From positions 1-29,113 of IMG/VR virus record IMGVR_UViG_3300042691_013693: DNA of 29,113 nucleotides; one strand, given 5' to 3'. Origin of the DNA: a virus. Within the stretch, counting starts at the first letter, position 1. Every line of letters starts with the position of its first letter. Shown one piece after another: positions 258 through 24,856 of this stretch. The notes under the pieces are model-generated. The model saw nothing but the letters and a program-made list of their open reading frames with translations. It was not told the DNA's origin and did no database searches. A program made the position numbers and the translations under genes.

Positions 258-356
258 CTATATAATAAATAAGGTAAGTTTAAAATAGACGAATTATCAG
301 TAATTAAAAGGTAGCTGGTATATAAATATATAATAAATAAAATAAGTTTAAAATAG
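222..356 (+). repeat. Imperfect tandem duplication (222-288 and 291-356)
   Basis: Bases 244-288 and 312-356 match at 42 of 45 positions. The similarity extends weakly upstream, where copy 1 encodes the last residues of the preceding gene and copy 2 encodes a frameshifted relic of the same tail (Glu-Leu-Ser-Val-Ile-Lys). Both copies contain AATAAATA (264-271 and 332-339). Only copy 2 also has TATAAATA (321-328). Copy 2 lies just upstream of the next gene's ribosome binding site. Confidence 0.85.
321..339 (+). promoter_or_regulatory. Tandem T4-type late promoter motifs
   Basis: TATAAATA at 321-328 is the exact T4 late -10 consensus. The overlapping AATAAATA at 332-339 fits the relaxed NATAAATA form used by marine T4-like phages. 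Predicted starts fall about 20-30 bases before the ATG at 366, leaving room for the AGGAGA ribosome binding site at 355-360. Promoter activity is inferred from motif and position. Confidence 0.6.
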
Positions 357-365
357 GAGAAAACA

Positions 366-1316
366 ATGCAGGAAACAAAGAAAATAAAATGGCTAATAGC
401 ACATGAGCCAGTAGATTTATTCTTAAGAACCGCCAAAGCATTTTCTAAAGATGTTTACGAAAGAACCAATGGAGCTATCGAAATAGAAATTCTTACATCA
501 GCAGAGTTTTCAAAAAAATATAACAGACCAATTGAGAATCCTCTTTCATATATGGAAGAAGGTTTATTAGAGATGAGTCAATTGCATATAAGTCATCTTT
601 GGAAATATAATACTCCGGCATTTATGGCTTTAGAATTACCTTTCCTATTTAATGATCATGATCACGTTGCACGAGTAGTAGAAGGTAAAATTGGACAAGA
701 AATGTTAGAATCACTAAAAGAAAAAAGTCCAGCAAGAGGATTAGCATTCACATACAGTGGAGGATATCGTGTAATGTTGAGCAACGAAGAAATACACACA
801 TTAGCAGATTTTAAAAATTTAAAATTTTATACTGGCACTAATCCTATCGCAATGGATACAATAGAAGCAATAGGAGGAAGACCGGACCCTCAAGTAAATG
901 ATCAATGGGGTCGTAGAATAGCCGATGAATTAAAAATCAACCATGATGCAGTTGACACAACATTGCCTCGTGTACCAAATTTTGTAAAAGACAATTCTAC
1001 AAAACGTTATATAACCGATACAAAACACAGTATATTTTTAACAACTATAGTTGTAAGTGAAAAATGGTGGAATACATTGACTGATGAACTTAAATCAGCT
1101 ATTTCTAAATCTGCTGTTGATGCTGCTCGTTTAGAACGTCAGTGGTCGTTGGAAGATGCAGAAGAATTAATTAAAAATTCTACAGAACAAGGACTGTTTT
1201 ATAAAGAACTTGATCAAAAAGAAATGGAAAAATTTTATTCTTTGACTCAACCTTTATACACAAAATATGATTCTGTGTTTATGCCCGGATTTATAGATCA
1301 AATTAAAAATAGTTAA
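366..1316 (+). CDS. TRAP transporter solute-binding protein-like (DctP family), without signal peptide
   Basis: The 316-residue product resembles DctP/SiaP-type periplasmic binding proteins of TRAP transporters, which normally capture C4-dicarboxylates or other organic acids outside the inner membrane. Family-like stretches are the ELPFLF segment near 90-95, the GGYRVMLSN region at 132-140 and the following ADFKNLKF segment at 147-154. Two features are odd. The protein begins directly with charged residues and the first beta strand (KIKWLIAHEP), so it has no export signal. At the usual carboxylate-binding arginine of the G-L-K-I-R motif it has Tyr155. A good ribosome binding site (AGGAGA, 355-360) supports the start. 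No TRAP membrane subunits are nearby. Membership of the family is fairly secure; a transport role is doubtful, and a cytoplasmic or virion role is possible. Confidence 0.82.
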   Translation: MQETKKIKWLIAHEPVDLFLRTAKAFSKDVYERTNGAIEIEILTSAEFSKKYNRPIENPLSYMEEGLLEMSQLHISHLWKYNTPAFMALELPFLFNDHDHVARVVEGKIGQEMLESLKEKSPARGLAFTYSGGYRVMLSNEEIHTLADFKNLKFYTGTNPIAMDTIEAIGGRPDPQVNDQWGRRIADELKINHDAVDTTLPRVPNFVKDNSTKRYITDTKHSIFLTTIVVSEKWWNTLTDELKSAISKSAVDAARLERQWSLEDAEELIKNSTEQGLFYKELDQKEMEKFYSLTQPLYTKYDSVFMPGFIDQIKNS

Positions 1317-1342: not shown

Positions 1343-1816
1343 ATGCATATACAAGAAAATTTTTTACATTCTGAATATGTTAACAAGAAAAAAATTTTAG
1401 TATTTGGCATCAATAGAATACAGAGTCCTCCAACAATACTTCATATAAAAAAAATTGACAAAAATTACAATGAAATAATTTCTACCGGTATTGATGATAT
1501 TTTTTGTGTTTCGTTTTGTGATTTTTTATTATTTGATTTTTTAATGCCTAAATTATCTACAAATATTAAATTTTTTCAAGACAAAAATGATTTAAATCTA
1601 TCAGAGTTTCAAAAATTGTTAAAAAAAAGAGGACATAAAAATTTCTTAAAGAAATTTTGGCAATTTGTTTTTTATTTAGATAATGGCTCAGTAAAATTTT
1701 ATATGGAAGAACCATTTCCAATTGGAAACAAATTAGCTATCTTTGAAAATACATCTCAAAATATATATAATAGTATAGATCCAGAAATAATATTAAAAAA
1801 ATTAAGAAACAATTAA
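1343..1816 (+). CDS. Unknown AT-rich protein, 157 residues
   Basis: An uninterrupted frame of 157 codons follows the DctP-like gene after 26 bases. It is unusually rich in Phe, Lys, Ile and Asn, reflecting very AT-rich DNA even for this genome. No signal peptide, repeated motif or catalytic signature is visible. A Phe-rich stretch around residues 55-67 (FCVSFCDFLLFDFL) is hydrophobic but not a convincing membrane helix. There is no clear ribosome binding site before the ATG; TATAAATG at 1331-1338 is one base off a late promoter motif. The composition suggests a recently acquired orphan gene. Function unknown. Confidence 0.6.
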   Translation: MHIQENFLHSEYVNKKKILVFGINRIQSPPTILHIKKIDKNYNEIISTGIDDIFCVSFCDFLLFDFLMPKLSTNIKFFQDKNDLNLSEFQKLLKKRGHKNFLKKFWQFVFYLDNGSVKFYMEEPFPIGNKLAIFENTSQNIYNSIDPEIILKKLRNN

Positions 1817-1933: not shown

Positions 1934-2905
1934 ATGGCTACACTAGCTGAAATAAGAGCGAGATTAAAATCTCAAGAAGTGAATCGCTCCACTTCATCAA
2001 CCGGTGGCGACAACGCCATCTACCCACACTGGAACATACAGGAAAATCAAGAAGCAGTAGTTCGTTTCTTACCTGACAAAGATCCAAGCAACACTTTTTT
2101 CTGGACAGAAAGAGCAATGATTAAATTGCCTTTTGCTGGAATTAAAGGACAAGCGGATTCAAGACCGGTGCAAGTACAAGTACCGTGCATGGAAATGTAT
2201 GGAGAAACTTGTCCAGTTCTAACAGAAGTTAGACCGTGGTTCAAAGACAAGTCAATGGAAGACATGGGCAGAAAATATTGGAAAAAGAAAAGTTATATAT
2301 TCCAAGGTTTTGTGTTACAAAATCCATTGTCAGATGACAAAACACCAGAGAATCCAATTAGAAGATTCATTATTGGTCCACAAATTTTTAACATAATCAG
2401 ATCTGCGTTACTGGATCCAGAAATGGAAGAGTTACCAACTGATGCTGTGAGAGGTGTGGATTTTAGAATAACCAAAACATCCAAAGGCGGATATGCTGAT
2501 TACTCTACTTCAAAATGGAGCAGAAGAGAAAGAGCTCTAGACGAAGCAGAAAGAGCAGCCATTGACAAGTTTGGATTGTTTAATCTTTCAGACTTCAGAC
2601 CCAAGAAGCCCACCGATGCAGAAGTAAAAATAATCAAAGAATTATTTGAAAAATCTGTAGAAGGTGAAGCTTATGATCTAGAAAAATATGGTCAGTATTT
2701 CAGACCAGCTGGAGTATCAGCTACAGCAAATGGTTCTGCGAACGGATCAGCATCAGTAACAGCTCCAGTTGATGGAGAAGCGATTGTTACCAAAGTAGAA
2801 GCGGTAAAAGCGGCTCCTGCTGCGGCAGCACCTCAACCATCTACTGACAGTGCTAAAAGAGCAGAAGATATCTTGAAACTGATTAGATCAAGACAAAGCA
2901 AATAA
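1934..2905 (+). CDS. 32: Single-stranded DNA-binding protein gp32
   Basis: This 323-residue protein has the layout of T4 gp32. A short basic N-terminal segment (LAEIRARLKSQE, residues 4-15) would mediate cooperative self-binding. The OB-fold core follows, with a cysteine pair (Cys85, Cys93) in the region of the structural zinc site. After residue 245 comes a low-complexity Ala/Pro/Ser-rich linker. It coats single-stranded DNA during replication, recombination and repair and loads with UvsX/UvsY, which are encoded just downstream. The start is firm: a full AGGAGG ribosome binding site sits at 1920-1925, the strongest in the window, as expected for a protein needed in stoichiometric amounts. 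Unlike T4, the C-terminus is not a strongly acidic tail but ends in a mixed, net basic segment (EDILKLIRSRQ). A large hairpin starts at its stop codon. Confidence 0.93.
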   Translation: MATLAEIRARLKSQEVNRSTSSTGGDNAIYPHWNIQENQEAVVRFLPDKDPSNTFFWTERAMIKLPFAGIKGQADSRPVQVQVPCMEMYGETCPVLTEVRPWFKDKSMEDMGRKYWKKKSYIFQGFVLQNPLSDDKTPENPIRRFIIGPQIFNIIRSALLDPEMEELPTDAVRGVDFRITKTSKGGYADYSTSKWSRRERALDEAERAAIDKFGLFNLSDFRPKKPTDAEVKIIKELFEKSVEGEAYDLEKYGQYFRPAGVSATANGSANGSASVTAPVDGEAIVTKVEAVKAAPAAAAPQPSTDSAKRAEDILKLIRSRQSK

Positions 2906-2982: not shown

Positions 2983-4053
2983 ATGACAAAAGTATTTGAC
3001 GCAACAAAGTTTAGAAAAAGCATTACAAAATCAATTCAAGGTTTAGGTTTAGGATTCAATGATCCTACTGATTGGATCTCTACAGGCAACTACGCATTAA
3101 ACTATTTGATATCGGGAGACTTTAACAAAGGTATTCCACTAGGTAAAGTATCTGTGTTAGCAGGAGAATCAGGAGCAGGTAAATCTTACATAGCATCAGG
3201 CAATATAATTAAGAATGCACAAGCACAAGGTATCTATGTTATTCTAATTGATACTGAGAACGCACTAGACGAGGCTTGGTTACAAGCACTAGGTGTAGAC
3301 ACAGATGAGAAGAAATTATTAAAATTGAGTCTTTCAATGGTGGATGATGTTGCTAAAACAATATCAGAATTCATGAAAGGTTACAGAGAAGAGAACCCAG
3401 ATAATAGAGAAAATGCACCTAAAATTTTATTTGTTATAGATTCGTTGGGTATGTTATTAACTCCTACAGACGTTAATCAGTTTGAAGCAGGAGAGATGAA
3501 AGGTGATTTAGGTAGAAAACCTAAAGCCCTAACAGCACTGGTTAGAAATTGTGTAAACATGTTTGGTTCTTGGAATGTAGGATTAATTGCAACCAACCAC
3601 ACGTATGCATCACAAGATATGTTTGATCCAGATGATAAAATATCTGGAGGTCAAGGATTTATCTATGCTTCTTCTATTGTGATAGCAATGAAAAAATTAA
3701 AATTAAAAGAAGACGAAGCAGGTAATAAAATTTCAGAAGTAAGAGGTATTCGAGCAGCATGTAAAGTTATGAAAACTCGATATGCTAAACCTTTTGAAAG
3801 TGTACAGGTTAAAATTCCATATGACACAGGAATGGATCCTTATTCTGGATTGGTTGATCTTTTTGAAAAACAAGGAGTACTGGTTCAATCTGGCAACAGA
3901 TTAAAGTATGTGGATAGCAAAGGTAAAGAACATCTAGAATATAGAAAAGATTGGGATGGAGATAAATTAACAATGATAATGAACGATTATCAAAATGTTA
4001 AAAAACCAGAACCAAAAGAAGATGAAAAAGAAATTAAAAAAGATAAAAAATAA
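2983..4053 (+). CDS. uvsX: RecA-like recombinase UvsX
   Basis: The 356-residue product is a RecA-fold strand-exchange ATPase. Walker A is GESGAGKS at 61-68. Walker B is at about 148-153, ending in Asp153 (ILFVIDSLG). The DNA-binding loop 2 region carries GGQGF at 223-227. UvsX forms filaments on single-stranded DNA, displacing gp32 with the help of UvsY, and drives homologous recombination, repair and recombination-dependent replication. The C-terminus ends in a Lys/Glu-rich tail (from about residue 340). The start is supported by AGGAAT at 2971-2976. It lies downstream of gp32, separated by the hairpin, as fits shared regulation. Confidence 0.97.
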   Translation: MTKVFDATKFRKSITKSIQGLGLGFNDPTDWISTGNYALNYLISGDFNKGIPLGKVSVLAGESGAGKSYIASGNIIKNAQAQGIYVILIDTENALDEAWLQALGVDTDEKKLLKLSLSMVDDVAKTISEFMKGYREENPDNRENAPKILFVIDSLGMLLTPTDVNQFEAGEMKGDLGRKPKALTALVRNCVNMFGSWNVGLIATNHTYASQDMFDPDDKISGGQGFIYASSIVIAMKKLKLKEDEAGNKISEVRGIRAACKVMKTRYAKPFESVQVKIPYDTGMDPYSGLVDLFEKQGVLVQSGNRLKYVDSKGKEHLEYRKDWDGDKLTMIMNDYQNVKKPEPKEDEKEIKKDKK

Positions 4054-14017: not shown

Positions 14018-15736
14018 ATGTGTGGCATATATGGTATAACGAAAAAAGATAGAGACTTTATAGAAAAGTATATAAAGATTTGTGAACATCGAGGACCAGA
14101 TGGACACGATATTTGGAACGATGACTATATTACTCTAGGACATAATCTTTTAAGCATAACCGATCAACCTACAGTTTCACATCAGCCATGGCGTACCGAA
14201 AGAGGTAACATATTAATCTATAATGGAGAAATTTTTAATTATTTTGATTTAATAAAAAAATATACAGAATTTCAACCCAAGACCACGTGTGATACAGAAC
14301 TGTTAGCGTGGGGATTAGACCATTATGGTGAAAAATTTGTTGAGCAGATTGATAGTATGCATGCCTTTGCTTATTATAATACCCAAACAAGACATTTAAT
14401 ATTAAGTCGAGATCACGCTGGTATTAAACCTTTATACTATGCCGAAACAGCAGAAGGATTAATATTTGGTTCTGAAATAAAAGGTATGTTGGATCGAGTA
14501 CCTGGTTCTAGAAAGATAGATCAGTTAGCAATCAGTTGTATGAGTCTTACAGGTATTAATGCTACTAGAAACACATTCTTTTCTAACATAAAACAACTGA
14601 TGCCTGGAGAAACAATCACTTATGATTGCACAAATAAAAGAATAAAATTATCAGAAAGAATTTATATCACTCCTAGATCTAACTCTTCTTTCGATCCTGC
14701 AGAGTTTAGAGATAAAGTTAGAAAAACTGTACAGATGTGCAGCATAGGACGAAGACAGATGGGAGTGTTTCTCAGCGGTGGATTAGACAGCAGTGTAGTA
14801 GCATACGAAATGATGAAGATACATGGTGCTGTGAATACATTTACTAATAAAATGCAGCCCAATGTTGTAACAGATGAAGATTACAATAGTGATGCTACCT
14901 GTGCAAAAATATTAGCACAACAAGAAAAATTTAATCACACAGAAGTTATTATTACTCCTAATGATGTGATTGCAGCATGGGAAGACAGCATCTATTACAT
15001 GGAGCAACCTGTATACAATCCTAGCATGAGCATGTATTATCATACTAATCGTAAATTATCCGAAGCAGGCACTATCATAACCATGGCAGGAGATATGGGT
15101 GACGAAATAATAGGAGGATATCCTAAGTACTGGAAGATGAAAGATGAAAAGTTTAATTCATGGAGTAGTATAATAGACAAATGGTTACAAAGAATAAAAA
15201 GACCATTAATAGTAGGGGTTCCAACTTTGCCAGCCACAGTGTTGAGAGAAGAATTAATAAAATTGTATCCCGATACTTTATGGAATCCTGCAGATCCTGT
15301 AGCGTCTTACATGGCACTCGATTGTGTGGCGCAAGCACCAAACGAATTCTTTTCTAGGAATGACAAATACGGTATGGCATTTGGTATGGAGGGAAGATTT
15401 CCGTTAACTACAAAAATGTTTATGCAATATTGTTTAGATATACCAACGAGTTATAAAATAGGTAAAAATAAACATGAGACCAAATTATTAACCAAAATTG
15501 CCTACAAAGGAATATTACCAGACACAATAATTAATAAACCGAAAACAGGATGGACTGTACCACTTGGACAATGGTTAGCAGGAGGTTCTGATAAAAATCT
15601 AAAAAACTTTTATACAAACAGCATGGGAGAAAAGTCTATGTTGGATCAAGTTACAGTGAGTCAAAAGTCAAGCAAAGCTCTAGTTCCGGCATGGATAATG
15701 AAAGATTGGATTAAAAAATATCAAACAACGTATTAA
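14018..15736 (+). CDS. asnB: Asparagine synthase (glutamine-hydrolysing)
   Basis: The 572-residue class II amidotransferase has both domains. The N-terminal glutaminase carries nucleophile Cys2 after Met processing (MCGIYGI), RGPDGHD (25-31) and NGEIFN (69-74). The C-terminal synthetase carries the ATP-binding PP-loop LSGGLDSSV (252-260) and GDMGDEI later. Active-site residues look intact, so it is probably functional. It would use glutamine, ATP and a carboxylate: aspartate gives asparagine, but homologues inside O-antigen clusters amidate uronic-acid sugars. Its position mid-operon between glycosyltransferases favours the latter, or a role in translation supply. The gene starts one base after paralogue C's stop, so it is translated from the same message. 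Confidence 0.95.
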   Translation: MCGIYGITKKDRDFIEKYIKICEHRGPDGHDIWNDDYITLGHNLLSITDQPTVSHQPWRTERGNILIYNGEIFNYFDLIKKYTEFQPKTTCDTELLAWGLDHYGEKFVEQIDSMHAFAYYNTQTRHLILSRDHAGIKPLYYAETAEGLIFGSEIKGMLDRVPGSRKIDQLAISCMSLTGINATRNTFFSNIKQLMPGETITYDCTNKRIKLSERIYITPRSNSSFDPAEFRDKVRKTVQMCSIGRRQMGVFLSGGLDSSVVAYEMMKIHGAVNTFTNKMQPNVVTDEDYNSDATCAKILAQQEKFNHTEVIITPNDVIAAWEDSIYYMEQPVYNPSMSMYYHTNRKLSEAGTIITMAGDMGDEIIGGYPKYWKMKDEKFNSWSSIIDKWLQRIKRPLIVGVPTLPATVLREELIKLYPDTLWNPADPVASYMALDCVAQAPNEFFSRNDKYGMAFGMEGRFPLTTKMFMQYCLDIPTSYKIGKNKHETKLLTKIAYKGILPDTIINKPKTGWTVPLGQWLAGGSDKNLKNFYTNSMGEKSMLDQVTVSQKSSKALVPAWIMKDWIKKYQTTY

Positions 15737-24112: not shown

Positions 24113-24120
24113 TATAAATA
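24113..24120 (+). promoter_or_regulatory. T4-type late promoter motif
   Basis: TATAAATA, an exact late-promoter match, lies in the 22-base gap after the DnaE-like gene. The predicted start falls at about 24126, only a base or two before ATG 24128, so the message would be nearly leaderless. Confidence 0.55.
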
Positions 24121-24127
24121 GACTGTG

Positions 24128-24848: not shown

Positions 24849-24856
24849 AATAAATA
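24849..24856 (+). promoter_or_regulatory. T4-type late promoter motif upstream of virion protein
   Basis: AATAAATA (NATAAATA class) lies 16 bases before ATG 24873 in the short divergent gap 24840-24872. The expected start near 24862 gives a leader of about ten bases. A late promoter fits the structural-protein assignment of the gene downstream. Confidence 0.6.

Follow-up and report, generated by a model that had tools for sequence, protein, structure and literature searches.

It is a defining trait of the solute-binding proteins of TRAP transporters that they act outside the cytoplasm. In the DctP family, an arginine corresponding to SiaP Arg147 is present in 96.8% of sequences, and its replacement in SiaP (R147A, R147K) leads to loss of high-affinity binding, although closure around the ligand is retained in crystals (PMC4646407). 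Host-derived transport components are also carried by phages, as is the case for pstS in cyanophages and tctA in SUP05 phages, where they have been discussed as uptake helpers (PMC6359870, PMC4164917). The phage DctP family presented here resembles them in this respect, but it has lost its export signal, which the TctC proteins encoded beside it have not. Our search of the literature on phage DctP/TRAP genes returned nothing on point. Two proteins from uncultured Caudovirales phages, A0A6J7WI33 and A0A6J7WKL0 ("TRAP transporter solute receptor DctP/TeaA"), align structurally with one half of our protein (N- or C-terminal), with 46% and 30% sequence identity, respectively. They differ from it in being half proteins of 159 and 162 amino acids with automatically assigned names, and no publication on either was found.

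The stretch of DNA analysed here (the window) is an IMG/VR fragment of 29,113 bp carrying T4-like phage genes (gp32, UvsX, UvsY, helicases and primase). The features relevant to this study are as follows:

264..271, + strand: AATAAATA, T4-type late-promoter-like motif, upstream copy of the tandem
321..328, + strand: TATAAATA, T4 late-promoter consensus
332..339, + strand: AATAAATA, about 27 bp ahead of the start codon (loci L002 and L003 have NATAAATA at the same place)
354..356, + strand: in-frame TAG stop, four codons 5' of the ATG at 366, excluding an N-terminal extension
356..361, + strand: probable ribosome-binding site GGAGAA, read from the sequence
366..1316, + strand: signal-less DctP-family protein (TRAP solute-binding fold), 316 amino acids, Tyr at the SiaP Arg147 position
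1343..1816, + strand: c5, peroxiredoxin-5-like fold without the peroxidatic T-x-x-C (PHROG 2281, E 4e-12; profile against 1nm3, E 1.6e-19)
1934..2905, + strand: gp32-like single-strand DNA-binding protein, context for a T4-like phage
2983..4053, + strand: UvsX-like recombinase, 69% identical to that of the Sinorhizobium jumbo phage Phosso, context

A DctP protein without an export signal

The product of 366–1316 is a full-length DctP protein (PF03480, E 7e-38, 131 bits, residues 21–301). Its AlphaFold2 model, built with 44 homologues as input, has a pLDDT of 92.5 and a pTM of 0.90, and the matches found with Foldseek and VIA-align are TRAP solute-binding proteins throughout, with Z up to 34.5 over about 295–299 residues (34 against both 7bbr and 4nq8). 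The whole fold is shared with SiaP and DctPAm (Z of about 32–34), as are the family motifs at approximately residues 92–107 and 125–135. The window protein differs from these in lacking a signal peptide, in having no DctQ or DctM adjoining it in the 29-kb window, and in carrying Tyr instead of Arg147. A reading made previously from the sequence alone had described a DctP-family protein that has no export signal and starts at the first core strand, and this is borne out by the model, in which strand 1 spans residues 5–11 and the protein begins four residues ahead of it. Strand 1 starts as early as residue 5, and judging from N-terminal hydrophobicity there is no hydrophobic segment ahead of it. 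The same reading had seen no upstream start encoding a signal peptide, and rightly so: the in-frame sequence reads stop-Glu-Lys-Thr-Met, with the stop at 354 leaving no room for a longer start or a hidden signal. The dN/dS is 0.18 between the window gene and that of L002, and 0.07–0.18 among relatives overall; since these values are low, the gene is under purifying selection.

Using an alignment as query, 334 matching stretches were found in IMG/VR viral contigs. All 104 DctP proteins containing the first-strand motif (from 95 loci, window included) start 2–6 residues before strand 1, the Met closest upstream of the motif being taken as the start; some frames open further upstream, with no clear signal in those inspected. 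The same short N-terminus was seen in 89 further N-terminal matches in 80 loci, some of which are from the same contigs as the 104. Maximum N-terminal hydrophobicity is 0.7–1.5 in the viral family, versus 2.3–3.4 in signal-bearing cellular cousins. The absence of Sec-signal export in the viral family is therefore well supported, and an annotation artefact or single-contig oddity was rejected, given the hundreds of contigs and the low dN/dS. The gp23 capsid protein is encoded in 10 of the 13 contigs examined. No family member was found among 50,697 isolate-phage records with three family queries, which only matched ordinary DctP genes at about 21–27% identity, some of them in phage-labelled records. 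One 180-kb phage contig (IMGVR_UViG_3300022602_000031; L011, L020) carries three signal-less DctP paralogues.

In cellular genome contigs, a single-protein query matched nothing and the alignment query gave matches. The closest cellular relatives found are AHEP-motif DctP-like proteins from Bdellovibrionota and Elusimicrobiota MAGs, in which the same first-strand motif is preceded by a clear signal peptide. The Bdellovibrionota forms have the pocket motif of the phage family, with residues W9, H13, P15, T129, R202, H221 and T226 common to both. Apart from keeping their signal peptides, the Bdellovibrionota and Elusimicrobiota proteins differ in that several adjoin NMT1-type ABC transporters and AMP-binding ligases, the latter being frequent beside the Bdellovibrionota cousins. 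In the phylogenetic trees, nine MAG genes group with the signal-less phage proteins on one side of a supported branch, with an SH-aLRT of 97 when two long-branch L126 rows lie inside the clade and 95 when four doubtful long-branch genomes are removed. This topology suggests that the export signal was probably lost once; another two MAG proteins without a signal (L121 and L129) are placed outside the clade. Five of the nine MAG genes adjoin bacterial-looking genes, among which there is mostly an MFS transporter gene; the signal-less form is therefore present in some bacterial bins too. Bacteriovorax and gammaproteobacterial MAG contigs (L102, L105, L106, L109 and L120) form a possible bacterial reservoir. 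In all of them a c54-like gene adjoins DctP, in most the MFS-type transporter gene lies just 5', and flagellin genes are near in L102 and L120.

Some members of the family are naturally split. We found 26 genes for the N-terminal half that stop at residue ~155, nearly all followed by a separate gene for the remainder, which begins with MK[ILV]R[TA]N[RK]NPV. The junctions differ, some having overlapping frames, others TAATAAATG within a single frame, gaps of about 70–90 nt, or extra (tandem) copies of the C-terminal half. The split members form one clade (support 98). Both halves are maintained, as indicated by a dN/dS of 0.15 and 0.09 (L021 versus L027). They offer a rare two-chain solute-binding protein to study. 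The split loci are L147–L169, L182 and L209, together with L021:5989-6940, L027:5982-6939 and L231:4896-5874.

Residue 155 and the ligand pocket

In several sequence alignments, Tyr155 of the window protein is aligned with the arginine of the LKxR motif of solved DctP proteins, which is the position of SiaP Arg147. The sequence-only reading had placed a tyrosine at the expected arginine, and this holds without any register shift, a mis-registered arginine being rejected by the same alignments. Among 101 signal-less viral proteins, 76 have Arg at residue 155, 11 have Tyr, 9 have Ala and 5 have another residue. All but one of the representatives lacking Arg155 fall in one clade, which has 16 non-redundant members and contains the window, and c5 adjoins DctP throughout this subclade. 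Of 13 Bdellovibrionota cousins that bear a signal, 6 are missing the same arginine. As most signal-less proteins keep the arginine and nearly half of these signal-bearing cousins are without it, export and Arg155 vary independently. The proposal that Tyr155 is evidence of repurposing was consequently rejected as stated, since exported cousins lose this arginine too. Repurposing as such fares better: the window protein is a DctP protein that is not Sec-exported and it appears repurposed, and the late-promoter reading discussed below extends across the family.

Other pocket-side residues are strongly conserved, with H13, Y130 and R202 invariant in all 43 non-redundant phage proteins and R135 found in 41 of them. 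H13 and R202 are newly invariant in the phage family compared with DctP/SiaP. R202 is also invariant in the Bdellovibrionota cousins, and none of the canonical proteins compared has it; from this pattern of conservation, we infer that it contacts the ligand. In the subclade of the window, it may take over the anchoring of the ligand.

Late-promoter-like motifs

Tandem late motifs had been noted upstream of the gene, and they are indeed present at 264, 321 and 332. At 332 and 321 the NATAAATA element lies 25–50 bp upstream, as for T4-type late genes, and constitutes a predicted promoter. The number of matches in the window is by itself not above chance, with 5 found for two late-motif patterns versus 10–11 expected, and it is across relatives that the enrichment becomes apparent. 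NATAAATA occurs in sense orientation within 120 bp upstream of 28 of 43 non-redundant DctP genes, versus 3 in antisense and 2.8 expected from shuffles; kinship of the sequences inflates these counts, but the contrast between sense and antisense is strong nonetheless. It is found upstream of 27 of 47 DctP genes, compared to 65 of 419 other genes of the same loci (Fisher 1e-9). Some lineages (L090–L096) lack the motif upstream of DctP.

In the window, NATAAATA is also present at 24113–24120 and 24849–24856, just 5' of the ORFs at 24125 and 24873, the latter having a weak match to a virion-protein PHROG. GATAAATA is found at 1847–1854, upstream of the gp32-like gene at 1934, and the late-type motif may therefore serve a replication gene here too.

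Neighbouring genes and proposed role

Within three genes of DctP, a c1 or c2 (PP-loop) gene is found in 28 out of 42 non-redundant cases, a TctC-like gene in 14 and c5 in 15. The SGGxDS PP-loop motif is present in c1 and in most c2 proteins. The best matches of the c1 model are beta-lactam and asparagine synthetases, although these are weak (E 5e-4, TM 0.3); neither c1 nor c2 has a Pfam match, and nothing meaningful was matched in a PDB profile search with c2. In nearly all TctC-like neighbours, the N-terminus contains a hydrophobic segment corresponding to a signal, which makes the loss of the signal specific to DctP. Among 13 large contigs, 5 carry TctA and 10 carry c2, and in L234 the gene order is c2, TctA, signal-bearing solute-binding protein and signal-less DctP. 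What these neighbourhoods have in common is the uptake of small acids and their ATP-dependent activation, and they favour a cytosolic small-molecule role for DctP, although adjacency of genes is indirect evidence.

Our preferred reading, to which we give about even weight, is that this TRAP-type solute-binding protein stays in the cytosol of the infected cell and captures a ligand there. Late in infection, it would close on a small metabolite, probably one with a carboxylate group, and hold it or hand it on. Across most of the family, this metabolite would go to the adjoining ATP-dependent ligase of asparagine/beta-lactam synthetase type (c1, c2), and in some phages the supply would come from the phage-encoded uptake proteins TctC and TctA. 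In the subclade of the window, the partner would instead be the cysteine-less peroxiredoxin fold (no T-x-x-C, from the peroxidatic P-x3-T-x2-C of peroxiredoxin-5, in 16 aligned c5 members) and the carboxylate-clamping Arg has become Tyr, so that its ligand probably differs. We put forward the more complete scheme tentatively: phages may import a carboxylate by TctC/TctA, hold it in the cytosol with the signal-less DctP (two-chain in one subclade), and use it in a phage ATP-dependent ligase to make a metabolite or modification for late infection. A signal dropped once, a kept pocket, mostly late-type promoters and ligase-like neighbours together suggest an intracellular job for this fold, and the family points to chemistry of late infection, as yet undescribed, in uncultivated T4-like and jumbo phages.

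A late promoter also fits a virion protein. DctP could be made late together with structural genes and travel inside the particle or on its tail, so that it is delivered to the next host or acts on it, and in one lineage (L055, L067) it is encoded between neck/tail-completion genes, named from reading of the sequence, and a large terminase gene confirmed in that contig. However, T4-type late promoters drive non-virion genes too, and the genomic position of DctP varies by lineage, its usual neighbours being metabolic or transport genes with no conserved virion partner. We consider a virion-carried protein unlikely, but it is the strongest of the alternatives. Another explanation is a cytosolic sensor or scaffold which regulates or structures its partner (the peroxiredoxin-fold protein in the subclade of the window) with no hand-over of ligand. 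This could account for the loss of the Arg147 position beside a protein without its own catalytic cysteine, and for the division into two chains in the sister subclade, but the conserved pocket described above (H13, Y130, R202, and R135 in nearly all) fits retained ligand binding, and we regard such a role as rather improbable.

The complete DctP fold and the presence of TctA or DctM on some contigs could also point to an auxiliary metabolic gene for uptake, whose product would reach the periplasm without a Sec signal and feed a host or phage TRAP transporter. This is very doubtful considering that every viral member examined has lost its signal, TctC neighbours keep theirs, and the contig with DctQ and DctM has its own Sec-signal DctP. 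On that 228-kb contig (L227/L228), the DctQ-DctM-DctP operon is complete and includes the signal-bearing DctP, and two further DctP copies located elsewhere are both signal-less family members (AHEP-type). Its phage status rests on IMG/VR, as it gave no gp23 or terminase match. Labelling the genes of this phage family as uptake genes is probably wrong. Finally, a horizontally acquired gene decaying without function would be consistent with the signal and a key ligand residue having been lost, but is scarcely credible for a gene with a conserved promoter motif and a dN/dS of 0.07–0.18 that is conserved over hundreds of contigs.

In L227:4067-10551, the TRAP operon (DctQ, DctM, signal-bearing DctP) is followed by c2, TctA and a TctC-like protein. 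As a point against the preferred reading, none of c1, c2, TctA and DctM is found near DctP in the 29-kb window, DctM having no match anywhere in the fragment. The window does contain a gene for a full asparagine synthase (GATase and synthase domains) at 14018–15736, which is 12.7 kb from DctP and belongs to a glycan-type cluster at about 7.4–18.3 kb, together with glycosyltransferases, methyltransferases and an epimerase.
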